A stretch of DNA of 64,000 nt, from the NCBI RefSeq assembly GCF_014202935.1, contig NZ_JACHHX010000008.1, positions 62,001-126,000 on the forward strand. The letters run 5' to 3'. Shown here one piece after another: positions 15,173 through 50,285 of the stretch; the first letter of the stretch is position 1, and every line of letters begins with the position of its first letter. Origin of the DNA: Rehaibacterium terrae (GTDB lineage: Bacteria > Pseudomonadota > Gammaproteobacteria > Xanthomonadales > Xanthomonadaceae). A program made the translations under genes and the position numbers. The notes beneath the pieces were generated by a model. The model was given only the letters and a program-made list of their open reading frames with translations, ran no database searches and was not told the origin of the DNA.

Positions 15173-17647
15173 TCAGAAGGTCCAGTCGACCCGCGCGTAG
15201 TAGAACGCGCCGTTGTAGCCGAACGGGGCGCTGGTCGAATACGGCAGGATGCCGTTGAAGGAATTGGCCGGGATCACCTCGTCGGGGTAGGCGTCGAACA
15301 CGTTGTCGGCGCCCACGGTCAGCCGCAACCCGTTGCCGAAGCGGTAGCCGGCGGCCACGTCCACCACCAGCTCGCGGCCGAAGGTCTGGTCCAGGGCCGG
15401 GTCGGTGTTGTTGAAGGTGGTGTACTTGCCGTAATGGGTGGCGCCCAGGCGCAGGTCCCAGGGGCCGAGGCGGTAGTCCAGGCCCAGCACGCCCTTGCTC
15501 TTGGGGGCGCCGTCCTGGATGCGGCCGAGCTCGGCGCGGCCGATCCGCTGCAGGCCGGGGTCGACCTGCCGCAGGCTGGCCGGATTGGGCGCCAGCCGGG
15601 TCACCTCGGTGTCGTTCCAGTTCCAGGCCAGGGTCAGGCCCAGCTCGCCGGCGCCGAGCGCGTACTGGCCGCTGGCGACCAGGTCCACGCCGCGGGTGCG
15701 GGTGTCGGCGGCGTTGGTGAAGTAGCGGCCGCCGCTGGCGTTGGGAAAGCCGTTGGCGACCAGGAACTGCCGCACCGGCGTGCCGACCAGGTTCTCCGAC
15801 AGCAGGATGCGGTCGTCGATGTCGATCCGGTAGGCATCGATGGTCAGCGTCCAGCGGTAGCCGAGCGCGGCGCTCAGGCCGAGGCTGAGGCTGCTCGACT
15901 TCTCCGCCTTGAGCGGTTCGGCACCGAGCAGCTGCGCCACCGGATCGGTGACCGGAAAGGTGCGCACCTCGAACGGCTGCAGCACGCCGCCGATGTTGAT
16001 GAAGGTGGTCGCGGTGGTCGAGTAGTACTGCTGGGCCAGCGAGGGCGCACGGAAGCCGGTGCTGGCGGTGCCGCGCAGCGCCAGCGCGTCGGTCAGCGCG
16101 TAGCGGCCGGACAGCTTGCCCGAGGTGGTGCTGCCGAAGTCGCTGTAGTCCTCGTGGCGTACCGCCGCGCCGAAGGCGAGGCGATCGCTCAGGTCGCCCT
16201 CGAGATCCAGGTACACCGACCAGGCGTCGCGGCTGACGTCCACCTGGTCGGACGGACGGAAGCCGGGGAAGACCTGGGCGCCGCCGGGCACGGTCGGCGT
16301 GGCCGGGTTGAAGAAGTAGCTCTCCGGCTGGCCGGCGCGGATGCGGAACTCGTCCTGGCGGTACTCCAGGCCGACGGCCAGGTTGAGCGGATAGGCCAGG
16401 CCGCCGACCTCCAAGCCGCGGCCGAGATCGAGGTTGAACGCGGTCAGGTCGTTGGTCAGGCTGCCGGCGTAGAAACGGGTCGGACTGGCCGCGCCGAGCG
16501 CGGTGTTCACGCTGTTGGCGACGTGGAAGGCGAAGTCGTTGCCGCCGGTGGTGAGGCTTGCATCCCAGCGCCACCCGCCCGCGGCGGTGCCGCGCACGCC
16601 GCCGGCCAGGCTGCGGTCCTGGCTGTCGGAGACGATCAGCGGCAGAAAGCCGTCGGGATGGATCGCCGGCACGTTGCGCGGGTCGAGCGGGCGGCGGAAG
16701 AAGCCGGCCGACTCGCCGTCACGCTGGCCATAGCTGCCGAAGGCGTAGAACTCGACGTCGTCCCCCAGCGCTGCGCCGCCATTGAAGAACACGATCCGGT
16801 CCTGGACGTCGGCGTCGCCCTGGCGGTGGTTGAGGCGGTTGATCGTGGCTTCGCGCGGATCGGGCTGGCCGTCGATCAGCGGGTACTGCTGGCGCGGATC
16901 GGGCCGGGAGCGGTTGGTGAAGCCGCGGTCGCGGTACTCGGCGGTCACGGTCAGGTGGCCGGCGCCCATGTCCAGGCTGGTGCTGGCGGCGACCTGGACC
17001 AGCTCGCCATCGCCGGCCTTGTGCTCGCCGTAGCGGGCATCCAGGCTGCCGCCCTCGCGCCCGCTCCTGAGCACGATGTTGATCACGCCGGCGATGGCAT
17101 CGGAGCCGTACAGCGCCGAGGCGCCGTCGCGCAGCACCTCGATGCGCTCGATCGCCGCCACCGGGATGGTGTTCAGATCCACCGGCGAGGAGCCGCGGCC
17201 GATGGTGCCGTTGACGTTGACGATCGCGGTGGTGTGGCGGCGCTTGCCGTTGACCAGCACCAGCACCTGGTCCGGGGCCAGGCCGCGCAACTGGGCCGGG
17301 CGCACGTGGTCGGTGCCGTCGGTGATCGACGGGCGCGGGAAATTGAACGAAGGCACCAGCCGCGCCAGCGCGGCGTTGATCTCGGGCGAGGCCTGCGCCT
17401 GCAGGGTCTCGACCGGGATCAGGTCGATCGGCGACAGCGATTCGGCGACGGTGCGGTCCAGCGCGCGGGTGCCGGTGACGACGACCGCGTCGAGGGCGCG
17501 GGCCTGGTCGCGTTCGGCCTCCTCCTCGGCGACGGCTTGCGCCTGGGCGCCCCCGGCCAGCAGGGCCAGGGCGATCGCGGACAGCAGCGGGCGCCGGCGC
17601 AAGGCGTCGGCGGCGGAAGGTGATGTGGCGGCGTGCTTGTCGTTCAT
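15173..17647 (-). CDS. TonB-dependent outer-membrane receptor
   Basis: An 824-residue receptor with a signal peptide (LLSAIALALLAGGAQAQA), a plug domain (about residues 50-210) with VLVLVNGKRRHTTAIVN and IERIEVLRDGASALYGSDAI, and a beta-barrel ending in the aromatic-terminated strand FYYARVDWTF typical of outer-membrane proteins. There is no N-terminal STN signalling domain. The TonB box is probably DAVVVTGTR (about 53-61). Transport should be powered by the TonB/ExbBD system at 19.6-22.6 kb. The substrate is unknown. A short leader ORF ending Cys-Cys-stop and a structured leader upstream suggest, as an inference, sulphur-responsive expression. The ATG has AAAGGA at good spacing. Confidence 0.93.
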   Translation of the reverse strand: MNDKHAATSPSAADALRRRPLLSAIALALLAGGAQAQAVAEEEAERDQARALDAVVVTGTRALDRTVAESLSPIDLIPVETLQAQASPEINAALARLVPSFNFPRPSITDGTDHVRPAQLRGLAPDQVLVLVNGKRRHTTAIVNVNGTIGRGSSPVDLNTIPVAAIERIEVLRDGASALYGSDAIAGVINIVLRSGREGGSLDARYGEHKAGDGELVQVAASTSLDMGAGHLTVTAEYRDRGFTNRSRPDPRQQYPLIDGQPDPREATINRLNHRQGDADVQDRIVFFNGGAALGDDVEFYAFGSYGQRDGESAGFFRRPLDPRNVPAIHPDGFLPLIVSDSQDRSLAGGVRGTAAGGWRWDASLTTGGNDFAFHVANSVNTALGAASPTRFYAGSLTNDLTAFNLDLGRGLEVGGLAYPLNLAVGLEYRQDEFRIRAGQPESYFFNPATPTVPGGAQVFPGFRPSDQVDVSRDAWSVYLDLEGDLSDRLAFGAAVRHEDYSDFGSTTSGKLSGRYALTDALALRGTASTGFRAPSLAQQYYSTTATTFINIGGVLQPFEVRTFPVTDPVAQLLGAEPLKAEKSSSLSLGLSAALGYRWTLTIDAYRIDIDDRILLSENLVGTPVRQFLVANGFPNASGGRYFTNAADTRTRGVDLVASGQYALGAGELGLTLAWNWNDTEVTRLAPNPASLRQVDPGLQRIGRAELGRIQDGAPKSKGVLGLDYRLGPWDLRLGATHYGKYTTFNNTDPALDQTFGRELVVDVAAGYRFGNGLRLTVGADNVFDAYPDEVIPANSFNGILPYSTSAPFGYNGAFYYARVDWTF

Positions 17648-17677
17648 GGTCGATCCTTTGGGGGGTCCCGCGATCGA

Positions 17678-17724
17678 CGCGACGCACGCTGGCCCGGCCG
17701 TCCCGCACGGGCAGCGCCGTCGCG
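17678..17724 (-). promoter_or_regulatory. Structured leader of the TonB receptor mRNA
   Basis: Between the leader ORF and the receptor start the RNA can fold into one long hairpin. Outer helix CGCGACG/CGTCGCG (7 bp) pairs 17718-17724 with 17678-17684, a middle helix CGCT/AGCG follows, and an inner helix GCCCG/CGGGC pairs 17708-17712 with 17692-17696. There is no T-run after it. It could sequester translation or act as one arm of an attenuator controlled by the leader ORF. Confidence 0.4.
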
Positions 17725-17767
17725 GGTCTCGGGGAGGGTCAGGGGGAGGTTTCTGGGGGCGCCTGAC

Positions 17768-17800
17768 TCAGCAGCACCGGGTCCGCACGGACGCAGACAT
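17768..17800 (-). CDS. Candidate leader peptide MSASVRTRCC
   Basis: A 10-codon ORF, MSASVRTRCC-stop, lies about 120 bases upstream of the TonB receptor on the same strand. Two adjacent cysteine codons directly before the stop are the signature expected of a cysteine-sensing attenuator leader, in which ribosomes stalling for Cys-tRNA alter downstream folding. Its ribosome-binding site is weak (GCGGTGG very close to the ATG). The peptide is far too short to call by sequence alone, so its status as a real leader is an inference. Confidence 0.4.
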   Translation of the reverse strand: MSASVRTRCC

Positions 17801-17949
17801 GCCACCGCAACAACAGGTGATGGACGCGTGAAGACGGGCGGCGATACGGGTCATGGCCGGCCGAGTATGCCGGCAGACGCCGCACCGCTGTCAACCCGGC
17901 ATCGCACGGACGGGTAGACTGCGCGGTGTCGTTCCCGCGCTGTCCCGGC

Positions 17950-18332
17950 ATGCCCGCCTTCTGCCCCTGCGGCTCCGGCCGCCCGTACGCCGACTGCTGC
18001 GGCCGCCGGCATGCCGGCGAGGCCGCACCCGGCGCCGCGGCGCAGATGCGCTCGCGCTGCAGCGCCTACGCGCTGGAACTGCGCAATGACCTGCTGACCA
18101 CCTGGCATCCGGACACGCGTCCGGCCGCGCTCGCACTCGAGGCTCCGCCGGGCGCGCGCACTACCAGGCTCGGACTGCAGGTGAAGCGGCAGGTCGTCAC
18201 CGGCCCGGATCGCGCCGAGGTCGAGTTCATCGCCCGCTGACGCGGCGGCGGCAGGGCGCAGGGCTGCACGAGCGCAGCCGCTTCCGCCGCGAGCGCGGGC
18301 GCTGGTTCCACCTCGACGGCGACAGCCGCTGA
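17950..18332 (+). pseudogene. Decayed YchJ-family (SEC-C motif) gene
   Basis: The N-terminus MPAFCPCGSGRPYADCCG is the Cys-rich SEC-C zinc motif of YchJ/UPF0225 proteins, and the reading runs to VEFIAR as in the family. There a TGA at 18238 interrupts it. Conserved C-terminal sequence then reappears in another frame (LHERSRFRRERGRWFHLDGD), ending at 18332. Restoring the family order needs the TGA changed to a sense codon and about one base added near 18264, so there are two lesions. The truncated 5' part could still be made, but it would lack the family C-terminus. Sequencing error cannot explain both defects easily. Confidence 0.7.
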
Positions 18333-19634: not shown

Positions 19635-20021
19635 CTACTCCACGTCGATCGCGGTCAAGCCGGCATTGCGCGCTGCGGCGAGGGCGAAGCTGAGCGTCTG
19701 GTATTCGCTGTCGTGGTCGGTGGCCAGCTGCAGGCGGGCGTCCGGGGCGCGGCCCACGACTTGGCGCAGGCGCTCCTGCAGTGCGGACGGCGGCAGCGGC
19801 GCGCCGTCCAGCCAGTATGTGTCGGCCGCGATCCGCAGGCGCAGCACCGTGTCGGGCGGTGGCGACGTCTCGATGCTGCGGTACGGCAGCTCGAGCGGGA
19901 TGCGCTGGATCGCCAGTGGCGCGCTGACCATGAAGATGATCAGCAACACCAGCAGCACGTCGATCAGGGGCACGATGTTGATTTCGGCCCGCGGGGTATC
20001 ACCGGTCGAGCGGAAAGCCAT
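19635..20021 (-). CDS. ExbD/TolR-family protein (third copy)
   Basis: A 128-residue ExbD-type proton-channel subunit with one membrane helix (INIVPLIDVLLVLLIIFMVS), including the Asp in PLIDVL that carries protons in the family, then a periplasmic domain. It works with ExbB to energise TonB. It is the third ExbD in a row but is set apart from the others by 169 bases that contain a strong terminator, so it probably has its own promoter or lower expression. The periplasmic domain (IETSPPPDTVLRLRIAADTY) differs clearly from the other two copies. It could serve a TolR-like or specialised role. Confidence 0.88.
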   Translation of the reverse strand: MAFRSTGDTPRAEINIVPLIDVLLVLLIIFMVSAPLAIQRIPLELPYRSIETSPPPDTVLRLRIAADTYWLDGAPLPPSALQERLRQVVGRAPDARLQLATDHDSEYQTLSFALAAARNAGLTAIDVE

Positions 20022-20138
20022 GACGCGTCTCCGTGGCGGTGGACGCCTCCTTCTTACGCCGGCTCGGCCAAGCCGGCAAGCCTGGCCGGCGGCGACGGTG
20101 CCCTTTGCCCGCTACGTGAGGCGGCGAGACCAAAACGA

Positions 20139-20164
20139 AAAACGCCGCCCGAAGGCGGCGTTTT
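20139..20164 (-). terminator. Terminator between the second and third exbD genes
   Basis: AAAACGCCGCC-cgaa-GGCGGCGTTTT is a perfect 11-bp stem with a 4-base loop, ending in a T-run on either strand. On the minus strand it lies 27 bases after the second exbD and ahead of the third, so it should end most of the tonB-exbB-exbD-exbD transcript. Confidence 0.8.
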
Positions 20165-20190
20165 CGCGGTCTGCGAGGCTGCGCGCAGGA

Positions 20191-20619
20191 CTAGCGCAGG
20201 GTCTCGACGAAACCGATCTTCTCCATGCCGGCGTTCTTGGCGATCGCCAGCACCTCGGCCAGCACCTGGTACTGGGCGTCGGGGTTGGTCTCGATCTCCA
20301 GGGTCGGCTGCGGCCGGTCGTTGTACTGGGCCTCATTGACCACGGCGATGAAGTCGTTGGTCAGCTGGCGCATCAGCACCGGCACACCGTCCTTGAAGAT
20401 CTCGCCGTTGGCGTCGATGCGCAGGGCGATCGGCGGCGGCGGATCCTTCGGCTGCTCAGGCTGCGCACGGCTGGCCTGGGGCAGGTCGATCTGGATCTGG
20501 TAGGACACGGCCGGCACGGTGACCATGAAGATGATCAACAGTACCAGGAGCACGTCGATCAGCGGCACGACGTTCATGTCGCACTTGGCGCCGGCTCCCT
20601 GTTGCGATGAAAAGGCCAT
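20191..20619 (-). CDS. exbD: ExbD proton-channel protein (second copy)
   Basis: A 142-residue ExbD with the membrane segment NVVPLIDVLLVLLIIFMVT (about residues 16-34) and the conserved proton-carrying Asp. The periplasmic part contains PPPIALRIDANGEIFKDG and ends with the helical AEVLAIAKNAGMEKIGFVET. ExbD forms the proton channel with ExbB and passes energy to TonB. It follows the first exbD by 18 bases. In Xanthomonas (from memory) a second exbD is present and contributes to some but not all TonB-dependent uptake, which this gene matches in position. Confidence 0.93.
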   Translation of the reverse strand: MAFSSQQGAGAKCDMNVVPLIDVLLVLLIIFMVTVPAVSYQIQIDLPQASRAQPEQPKDPPPPIALRIDANGEIFKDGVPVLMRQLTNDFIAVVNEAQYNDRPQPTLEIETNPDAQYQVLAEVLAIAKNAGMEKIGFVETLR

Positions 20620-20637
20620 GCGATGCTGCTCCGGATA

Positions 20638-21051
<414 letters not shown>

Positions 21052-21086
21052 GGGGTGTCTCCGTCAGCCTGCTGTCTCGAACCGGC

Positions 21087-21884
21087 TCAGCGCTTGACCG
21101 CCGCGGCCGCATCGCCGACGCGGGAACCGGTGGCGAAGAAGTCGTGCAGGTCGTGCGCGAACGAGTCGAAGCGGGTGTTGATGACGCGGTTCTGGCGGGT
21201 GAAGGCGTTGTAGGCGATCACCGCCGGAATCGCGACGGCCAGACCGATCGCGGTCATGATCAGCGCGGCGCCGACCGGGCCGGCCACGGCGTCGATCGAG
21301 GCCGAGCCGCTGACGCTGATGCCGATCAGCGCGTGGTAGATCTTCCACACGGTGCCGAGCAGGCCGACGAACGGAGCGGTCGAGCCGACCGTCGCCAGCA
21401 GGGTCAGGCCGTTCTCGAGCTTGGAACTCTCGCGGGTGACCGCCTGGCGCAGGGCGCGATCGATGAACTCGGAGCGGTTCAGGGCCTCGACCAGGCGCGA
21501 GCCTTCATGCTTCTGGTGGTGCGAGGCGGCCTCGGCGGCATCGAGCGCGATCTTGGAGAACGGCTCGTCCTTCGGCTGCTCCTCCATGAACTTGATCGCG
21601 TCCTGGGCATTGGTGGTCTGCCAGAAGGTGGCGATCACCTTGTCCGCGCGGGCCTTGATCTTGGCGTTGCGGATCCAGTTGACGATCGTGTAGTACCAGG
21701 CGGCCAGCGACTGGACGATCAGCACGATCAGGATGAAGGCGGCGACGTTCTGCTCGCCCGCCAGCATCTCGCCGATCATGTGGTCGAAGCCGAACTGCTC
21801 GGCGCCGGCGACGCCCGTCTCCAGACCCTGGATCGGCTGGTTGGCGGCCTGGGCGGCCGCGGTGTTGGTGGTGTCCTGCAGCAT
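21087..21884 (-). CDS. exbB: ExbB (MotA/TolQ/ExbB-family proton channel)
   Basis: A 265-residue polytopic protein. One membrane helix lies near residues 40-60 (FILIVLIVQSLAAWYYTIV). The family core is in the second half: LTLLATVGSTAPFVGLLGTV and later GPVGAALIMTAIGLAVAIPAVIAYN, which line the proton channel. It assembles with ExbD in the inner membrane and energises TonB using the proton gradient. The N-terminus is long and Gln/Ala-rich, typical of Xanthomonadales ExbB. It sits 18 bases after tonB. Confidence 0.95.
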   Translation of the reverse strand: MLQDTTNTAAAQAANQPIQGLETGVAGAEQFGFDHMIGEMLAGEQNVAAFILIVLIVQSLAAWYYTIVNWIRNAKIKARADKVIATFWQTTNAQDAIKFMEEQPKDEPFSKIALDAAEAASHHQKHEGSRLVEALNRSEFIDRALRQAVTRESSKLENGLTLLATVGSTAPFVGLLGTVWKIYHALIGISVSGSASIDAVAGPVGAALIMTAIGLAVAIPAVIAYNAFTRQNRVINTRFDSFAHDLHDFFATGSRVGDAAAAVKR

Positions 21885-21902
21885 AACGCGTACCTTTGGT
21901 GA

Positions 21903-22568
21903 TTAAGCTTCGTCAAGTCGGAAGTTGATCGGGACCAACACCCAGCCCTGGACCGGCTGGCCGTTGCGGATGCCCGGGTTGAATTTCCACTGCCGCACCG
22001 CATCCATGGCGGCACGGTCGAGGAGGCGTGAACGGCTCGATTTCTCGACTTCGATCTGGATCGGATCGCCGTTCGTATCCACCAGAACGCGGAGGATCAC
22101 CTCACCCTGCTCGCGGTTGCGAAGTGCCTGCGGCGGATAGCGCGGCGGGCGTATCCGGCGGTAGGTCTGGTCCTCGCTCGGCCCGTAGTCCTGCGGGGGG
22201 GCCGGCGGCGCCGGCGGCGCCGGCGGCGGCGCCTCGACCGCCATCGGCGAGGCGTCCTCGAACACCACCGGCGGCTCCGGCGGCGGCGGCTGCGGTACCG
22301 GCTGCGGGCGTTCGACCACCTTCGGCGGCGGACGCTTGGGCGGCTCCGGCGGCGGGGGCGGGGGCGGCGGCGGCGGCGGCGGCGGCTCGATGAAGGTGAC
22401 CTGGACGATGTCTTCCTTCTCCTCCGCCGGGGCCGACTTGGATACCGGGGCGAGCAGGAACAGGCCGGTCGCGATGTGCAGCGCCGTGGCCACCGAGATG
22501 CCGGCGACGCGGATCCAGCTGAACTGGTCCGGTTGCTCGCTTTCGATTTTGTATTTGATGTCCGTCAT
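21903..22568 (-). CDS. tonB: TonB energy-transducing protein
   Basis: A 221-residue TonB. The N-terminal anchor helix lies at about residues 20-42 (RVAGISVATALHIATGLFLL). A very proline-rich spacer follows, with a run of 13 prolines and repeated PP-E/K-PP blocks, then the C-terminal domain with RYPPQALRNREQGEVILRVL and the ending GWVLVPINFRLDEA. It spans the periplasm and drives TonB-dependent receptors, including probably both in this window. A GTG 33 bases upstream is in frame, but MTDIKYKIESEQ is the better start. It is the first gene of the tonB-exbB-exbD-exbD operon. Confidence 0.93.
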   Translation of the reverse strand: MTDIKYKIESEQPDQFSWIRVAGISVATALHIATGLFLLAPVSKSAPAEEKEDIVQVTFIEPPPPPPPPPPPPPEPPKRPPPKVVERPQPVPQPPPPEPPVVFEDASPMAVEAPPPAPPAPPAPPQDYGPSEDQTYRRIRPPRYPPQALRNREQGEVILRVLVDTNGDPIQIEVEKSSRSRLLDRAAMDAVRQWKFNPGIRNGQPVQGWVLVPINFRLDEA

Positions 22569-22656
22569 GCGGGAATGACTGCGTTGCTTCCGCCGCGGCA
22601 CCCACCGTCACCGCGGCAGGCGGCGGAAGGGGCCGGTGAATGCGGGAATCTCCTAG

Positions 22657-49754: not shown

Positions 49755-49857
49755 GGCGCATTCTAGGCAGAGCCTCACGGCCGAAGGTAGGGGCCAGCCG
49801 GGGCGAATCACCCCCAACATCTCGTGTTGACCGGCCGGTCCGACCCCGATAAGTTGT

Positions 49858-50045
49858 GGCCCGTTGGTTCCCGGTCATCGATCGGCCGGGATTGAAAGGG
49901 AAGCCGGTGAGACTCCGGCGCTGCCCCGCAGCGGTATTGGGAAACGAAAGCCGTCGATGGCACTGGGATCCTGGATCCTGGGAAGCCCGGCCGGTAGGTG
50001 AGGCGACCGCCTCGCGTCCCTGAGCCCGAAGACCTGCCAACAGCC
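49858..50045 (+). promoter_or_regulatory. Cobalamin (adenosylcobalamin) riboswitch
   Basis: The aptamer is recognisable by its conserved blocks in order: TTGGTTCCCGGTCAT at the 5' side, then AAGCCGGTGAGACTCCGGCG and CTGCCCCGCAGCGGTA (the B12 box region), then GGCACTGGGATCC, and finally GAAGACCTGCCAA. It precedes nrdA by about 240 bases on the same strand. A following hairpin CCGCGCG/CGCGCGG at about 50044-50066 may be part of the switch. By family precedent, bound cobalamin turns the downstream gene off. Confidence 0.9.
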
Positions 50046-50285
50046 GCGCGCCGCACGAACGCGCGGTCCCGGCTGAAGGACCTTTCGCGGGAAAGGCGGC
50101 CGGACGCGATGCCTGCCCGTCCGCGGCCGGCCTGCGTCCGTCCCTTTCCTCCCGGAAGCTCCGGCGCCCGCGGGGGCGCGACCGGATGCCGCGCGCCGCG
50201 TGCGCGTCCGCATCCTGCCGTGTTCCCGTGTCCGCGGTCCTGCGAGGGACGGGCCGCGCCACGTGCGACACCGCAGGAAGTCGCC

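Follow-up and report, generated by a model that had tools for sequence, protein, structure and literature searches.

The receptor locus and its upstream reading frame

The window, meaning the whole 64,000-nucleotide (nt) stretch of DNA analysed here, encodes on its minus strand a TonB-dependent receptor that is preceded by a putative promoter, a short upstream open reading frame (uORF) with tandem Cys codons and a leader RNA in which two stems are predicted (Table 1). Compared with ligand-specific families, the receptor scored above no curated cut-off. Upstream of it, on the plus strand, a short SEC-C/YchJ-like ORF (17926-18331) stops at 18240, with a plausible C-terminus in another frame reaching ~18331; judged by eye, a frameshift or a sequence error is possible. 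Also near the receptor are biopolymer-transport genes (19635-22601, minus strand) whose translations resemble TonB, ExbB and several copies of ExbD.

The initial annotation described a 10-codon ORF, MSASVRTRCC-stop, upstream of the receptor. This stretch is indeed present, but its boundaries were wrong, as it is merely the 3' end, 10 codons long, of a 28-codon in-frame ORF starting with ATG. The full uORF contains five Cys codons, namely a TGT TGT TGC run followed by a terminal TGC TGC, and since TGT accounts for only 8 of the 120 Cys codons in the likely genes of the window, it is a rare Cys codon here. When the upstream region was shuffled 1000 times with dinucleotide content preserved, an ATG ORF of 8-60 amino acids (aa) with adjacent Cys codons arose in 3.4% of the shuffles. 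The frequency fell to 0.2% for an ORF ending in CC-stop and to 0.1% for an ORF containing CCC, and no shuffle produced the two features together. The uORF peptide had no match in Pfam or NCBIfam, and the leader had no match at the gathering score to a cis-regulatory RNA in Rfam. The sole Rfam match in the window is a cobalamin riboswitch aptamer located elsewhere (RF00174, 110 bits, 49848-50055, plus strand).

The -10-like element, read directly from the sequence, is separated from the TTGACA hexamer by a 19-nt spacer, and the uORF ATG lies 9 nt downstream of it. A consensus promoter scan limited to spacers of 16-18 nt reported no promoter at the leader. The near-constant distance between TTGACA and ATG among related loci (31-34 nt) leaves space for essentially no 5' untranslated region, and transcription from a promoter of this kind would start at the AUG or no more than a few bases from it. 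The uORF of the window thus looks leaderless or nearly so, which would account for the weak ribosome-binding site (RBS) noted in the initial annotation.

Table 1 Features of the receptor leader in the window and of related leaders. Single coordinates refer to the window; entries beginning with L refer to other loci, and for the regulator uORFs the positions and the sequences form two separate lists.
Feature	Position	Strand	Remarks
TonB-dependent receptor, 824 aa, plug and barrel; presumed regulated gene	15173..17647	minus	ATG at 17647; Pfam PF07715 and PF00593
Predicted RBS-proximal stem GTCGATC/GATCGAC around the receptor Shine-Dalgarno AAAGGA	17650..17678	minus	z -1.3 versus shuffles, non-significant alone
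Stable predicted hairpin in leader RNA	17679..17723	minus	5' arm holds conserved block CGCGACGG; z -1.9
Tail of uORF, MSASVRTRCC-stop, 10 codons	17768..17800	minus	terminal CC specific to the window's genome
Leaderless-type uORF, 28 codons, MTRIAARLHASITCCCGGMSASVRTRCC-stop	17768..17854	minus	ATG at 17854; position and Cys14-Cys15 conserved in 8 genomes
Putative control codons TGT TGT TGC (Cys14-Cys15-Cys16)	17807..17815	minus	14-15 invariant among orthologues
-10-like element CATACT	17864..17869	minus	GGCAT..CTC-like block aligned in orthologues
-35 element TTGACA, putative promoter	17889..17894	minus	same hexamer 31-34 nt 5' of the uORF ATG in 8/8 orthologous loci, 2 of them found with a pattern requiring it
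Receptor leaders, genus g42 (G227, G257, G398)			MNFRTA[I/T/N]ASAA[E/P]TCC[Q/R]VCCVLPARKGTHG
Receptor leaders, genus g5 (G004, G055, G131, G157)			MSLHCTNNTLSPHCCRGDMPLPVRFPVRLN; MSLHCTISHLRIRCCCGDMPLCVRIPVRLNR (2 genomes); MSPRCAISALSIRCCCGGMPLPVRFPVRLN
Regulator uORFs, genus g5, directly upstream of the gene	L178:3087; L180:2865; L181:1686; L184, upstream of 6042	minus; plus; plus; minus	G004 MKTFLPMPMYCCCRGATPLTHS...; G131 M(M)NILPPMTRYRCCRGSTPLAHS...; G157 MNTLLPMTRYCCCRRR-stop; G055 MATPLPLPMAPCCRLV...

Conservation of the leader among related genomes

When the receptor was used as query against 395 genomes of the same family, a small set of close orthologues was returned, and the layout of TTGACA, 31-34 nt, ATG and Cys-Cys was found upstream of the orthologous receptor in eight genomes from three genera; six of these loci were recognised directly, and the other two were recovered solely by a pattern search that presupposes TTGACA (TTGACA, 28-38 nt, ATG, 36 nt, TGYTGY). 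The eight comprise the window's genome (genus g1), three genomes of g42 and four of g5. The Cys-Cys pair falls exactly at codons 14-15 in all eight leaders, some of which carry a third Cys (CCC), and the first control codon is TGT in every one. The uORFs are 28-31 codons long, and their peptides are otherwise divergent: the leaders of the window and of G257 are identical at 7 of 28 positions, M1, T13, C14 and C15 among them, and only M1, C14, C15 and R24 are common to every pair of five representative leaders. Within g5, conservation extends to the peptide's C-terminal half. The initial annotation had expected the Cys codons and their frame to be kept among orthologues, and this holds for codons 14-15 but not for the CC-stop at the end of the 10-codon ORF, which occurs in the window's genome only.

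In a receptor tree containing six of the leader-bearing receptors, these and the receptor of G048, which lacks such a leader, formed one clade with a support of 99/98. This is consistent with a history of one gain and one loss. In G048 (upstream of L136:8797), the receptor start, GTG or ATG, is overlapped by a 5' ORF (MASPGPSVGRCRSGWSVAHESSDSPGQRM) without tandem Cys, and the leader has apparently been lost or remodelled. The leader was absent from the other receptor homologues examined, which are at most 57% identical, plus that of G167 at 60%. The neighbour genes of the receptor vary between genera, so leader and receptor have stayed together as a unit; in the loci compared across genera, the receptor does not adjoin sulphur genes. 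The leader-bearing receptor of G131 (G131:C76:6291-8703; L144, L137) was matched as two overlapping pieces, covering residues 8-251 and 248-821, which suggests a frameshift or an assembly error.

Other searches were less productive. Querying 119 relatives with the 28-aa leader by tblastn gave weak matches only, and those inspected look like chance. Loci related by the receptor alone numbered five, distant and mostly from Pseudomonas (37-38%), and were of no use for the leader. Family-wide and order-wide pattern searches, in which an open frame was the sole filter applied to the matches, gave extra matches but none that looked like a further convincing leader. At the level of sequence, the comparison establishes that a Cys-codon uORF ahead of a single receptor clade is conserved across three genera, and the leader is genuine and conserved, and very probably regulatory.

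Leader RNA structure and sulphur context

A three-part hairpin at 17678-17724 had been proposed in the initial annotation. A stem is predicted at this position, but the fold of 17671-17728 (-35 kcal/mol in a sequence of 71% GC) is modestly better than those of shuffled sequences, 10 of 200 being as good (z -1.9), and the three-part switch is over-specific and finds no consistent support in folding. The block in the 5' arm is invariant in seven distinct leaders. Covariation in the hairpin is weak, with changes on both sides in 3 of 16 pairs and a covariation term that is not favourable. Pairings analogous to the RBS-proximal stem can be drawn in the other genera, UCGGA..ACUUC/GAAGU..UCCGA in g5 and UCGG/CCGA in g42. 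Partition-function (equilibrium) folding of the window RNA and its relatives with simulated ribosome positions predicted that the hairpin and the RBS stem of the window coexist at every ribosome position. For G004, with the ribosome on the Cys codons, the RBS stem was predicted to give way in part to the hairpin, and no such change was predicted for G055 or G131. A classical switch between regions 1:2, 2:3 and 3:4, appealing on visual inspection, was rejected, as the pairing probability between Cys codons and hairpin arm is ~0 and the predicted states differ from genome to genome. In these models, folding yields no consistent on/off switch and no direction of control. A scan of 17600-17960 returned no intrinsic terminator and no T-tract, the latter as stated in the initial annotation.

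A similar leader precedes a second gene in genus g5. In all four species, a LysR-type gene beside sulphate-assimilation genes is preceded by a uORF of the leaderless type that contains adjacent Cys codons; cysI/cysH and cysG are its gene neighbours in G004, G131 or G157. The regulator protein matches the CysB-family models PRK12684 and PRK12681 with E <1e-60, below their curated cut-offs, and its best match is the LysR model PRK12680, also below cut-off. Across the four species, the uORFs carry CC(C) at codons 11-13, their promoter-to-ATG layout is similar to that of the receptor leader, and a conserved GCAGTATGG lies immediately 5' of each start. In G004 and G131, the uORF extends beyond the regulator start codon in a different frame, so translating it in full would hinder regulator initiation, an effect that a ribosome stalled at the Cys codons would lift. 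The uORF of G055 shares the regulator's reading frame and may form an N-terminal extension of the protein, and in G157 ~260 nt of extra DNA separate uORF and gene. Upstream of a regulator homologue in G018 (55% identity), no such leader was found. The g5 regulator leaders provide the strongest functional pointer to cysteine sensing by leaders of this kind.

The sulphur genes of the leader-bearing genomes point in a similar direction. The window's genome (99.97% complete) encodes one PF01507 protein, near a CysN-CysC fusion (CysNC at L177:4355-6304), which by its position beside CysNC is taken to be CysD; the single PF01507 copy of G257 is CysD. Neither a second PF01507 protein of the CysH type (PAPS reductase) nor a NIR_SIR (sulphite reductase) domain was detected in the window's genome. 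NIR_SIR is also absent from G227, G257, G398 and G055, and is present in three of the eight leader-bearing genomes (G004, G131 and G157). Several leader-bearing species thus probably activate sulphate without reducing it and would need reduced or organic sulphur, which as a link to the leader is suggestive only. Together, the regulator leaders of g5 and the lack of CysH-type and sulphite reductases in the window's genome make a cysteine or sulphur signal more likely.

Candidate cysteine attenuation, its alternatives and known systems

The reading we favour, at a probability of roughly two in three, is that the leader acts as a cysteine-responsive, uORF-based translational attenuator of the TonB-dependent receptor. 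It draws on the conserved position of Cys14-Cys15 in a peptide that otherwise diverges, on the rare TGT that leads the control codons in every leader, and on the retention of the leader with one receptor clade amid changing neighbours. Transcription would begin at or a few nt from the uORF AUG, and ribosomes would load on the leaderless mRNA. When Cys-tRNA is scarce, the ribosome would stall at Cys14-Cys15, the rare TGT being met first, and would shift the stems formed in the 90-120 nt that separate the uORF from the receptor gene, whereby the receptor RBS, otherwise held in the RBS-proximal stem, would be freed and the receptor made. With plentiful cysteine, ribosomes would pass and the RBS would remain poorly accessible. 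The receptor may serve to take up sulphur in reduced or organic form, the least certain step of the scheme. Cysteine sensing by the uORF is likely, and induction by starvation is the expected direction. The initial interpretation is thereby partly supported, its idea being right in large part, with changed ORF boundaries and a hairpin model that was over-specific.

Control could instead act on transcription, with uORF translation setting how readily Rho reaches the C-rich leader; the step that responds to cysteine would then be premature termination and not RBS occlusion. A C-rich, G-poor stretch does lie between the uORF stop and the hairpin in the window leader (~17725-17765), the leader has no intrinsic terminator, and a uORF regulating a TonB receptor through Rho is already known from CruR-bfrG (PMC9426467). 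However, the other two genera have a far shorter stretch of this kind, and a ribosome stalled at codons 14-16 would sit well upstream of the C-rich stretch. Such a ribosome would leave the stretch exposed, so under Rho control starvation would lower rather than raise expression. Rho control is therefore considered unlikely, and translational control the more likely of the two.

It could also be speculated that the nascent Cys-rich peptide is itself a sensor, either of a metal, copper or zinc, or of redox state, and that the receptor imports a metal complex, as for CruR-bfrG. Copper-sensing uORFs do exist upstream of TonB receptors (PMC9426467), and the CCxxCC of one leader type and the CCCGGM/CCCGDM of others are plausible thiol or metal ligands. 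Yet the window peptide, having no Pfam or NCBIfam match, does not belong to DUF2946/CruR and lacks the CruR layout of 145 residues, CXXC and a C-terminal RAPP; beyond M1 and R24, all leaders share just Cys14-Cys15. The use of rare TGT, as expected if codons matter, and the similar leaders ahead of the CysB-family gene also argue against a peptide sensor, which we regard as improbable. A third alternative is that the uORF has no regulatory function and is conserved as a by-product of the conserved promoter and 5' RNA, or that its small peptide serves some other purpose; restriction of the leader to three genera would fit this, and the conserved C-terminal half in g5 could reflect RNA or peptide constraint. 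That the exact Cys-Cys position and frame are kept over three diverged genera, that rare TGT is used and that tandem-Cys leaders recur at the CysB-family gene make this explanation very improbable.

Returning to cysteine attenuation, a wider proposal can be put forward tentatively, at somewhat less than even odds: in a proteobacterial circuit, leaderless Cys-codon uORFs would control an outer-membrane receptor for an as yet undescribed organosulphur compound and, in one genus, a CysB-family master regulator, having evolved apart from a mycobacterial analogue, and in species from which sulphate reduction has seemingly been lost would match receptor synthesis to cysteine shortage. The literature searched contained no proteobacterial cysteine attenuator, which is not proof of absence. 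If confirmed, the leader would extend cysteine attenuation to another phylum with leaderless initiation used as a sensor, tie it to outer-membrane uptake and a CysB-family regulator, and predict an organosulphur substrate for this TonB-receptor clade. A promoter, an immediate ATG and tandem Cys codons near codons 11-16 may serve as a search rule for more such switches.

Canestrari et al. (doi 10.1111/mmi.14498) are said to have described, in 2020, polycysteine-encoding leaderless short ORFs of mycobacteria ahead of sulphur/cysteine operons. Cysteine-directed attenuation was first proposed in mycobacteria, with candidate ORFs in Shell et al. 2015 (PMC4633059), and leaderless uORFs with contiguous Cys codons in M. 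smegmatis are described as cysteine-responsive attenuators (reported in PMC9031893; cited in PMC13236596). In its presumed working, the present uORF resembles these more than any other system: it is a short ORF apparently at the mRNA 5' end, ahead of the presumed regulated gene, with a run of contiguous Cys codons that is conserved among orthologues (CC or CCC at codons 14-15 or 14-16 in eight genomes), and an intrinsic terminator would be unnecessary. Unlike the mycobacterial uORFs at sulphur/cysteine operons, the present leaders stand before a TonB-dependent receptor gene, and in relatives also before a gene for a CysB-family regulator. The phylum is, as we infer, a different one, gene content pointing to a gammaproteobacterial lineage; neither sequence homology nor common descent is claimed, there being no sequence evidence of the latter.

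The second comparison is with CruR (DUF2946) of Bordetella pertussis, a copper-responsive uORF upstream of the TonB-dependent receptor gene bfrG, which encodes 145 aa, is predicted to be exported, carries CXXC and C-terminal RAPP motifs and acts through Rho-dependent termination (PMC9426467). Both are cysteine-containing uORFs directly ahead of a TonB-dependent receptor gene, and control by CruR is post-transcriptional. Membership of the CruR/DUF2946 family was rejected for the 28-aa window peptide, as it lacks the RAPP motif and a DUF2946 match.

Finally, in classical leader-peptide attenuators (trp, his, leu), a short leader ORF carries adjacent codons for a single amino acid, some of them rare, and stable RNA stems follow. 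The present leader shares this arrangement, its stable stems being predicted ones, but differs from the classical attenuators in having no Rho-independent terminator or T-tract, in its putative leaderless initiation and in its target, a transporter rather than a biosynthetic operon.
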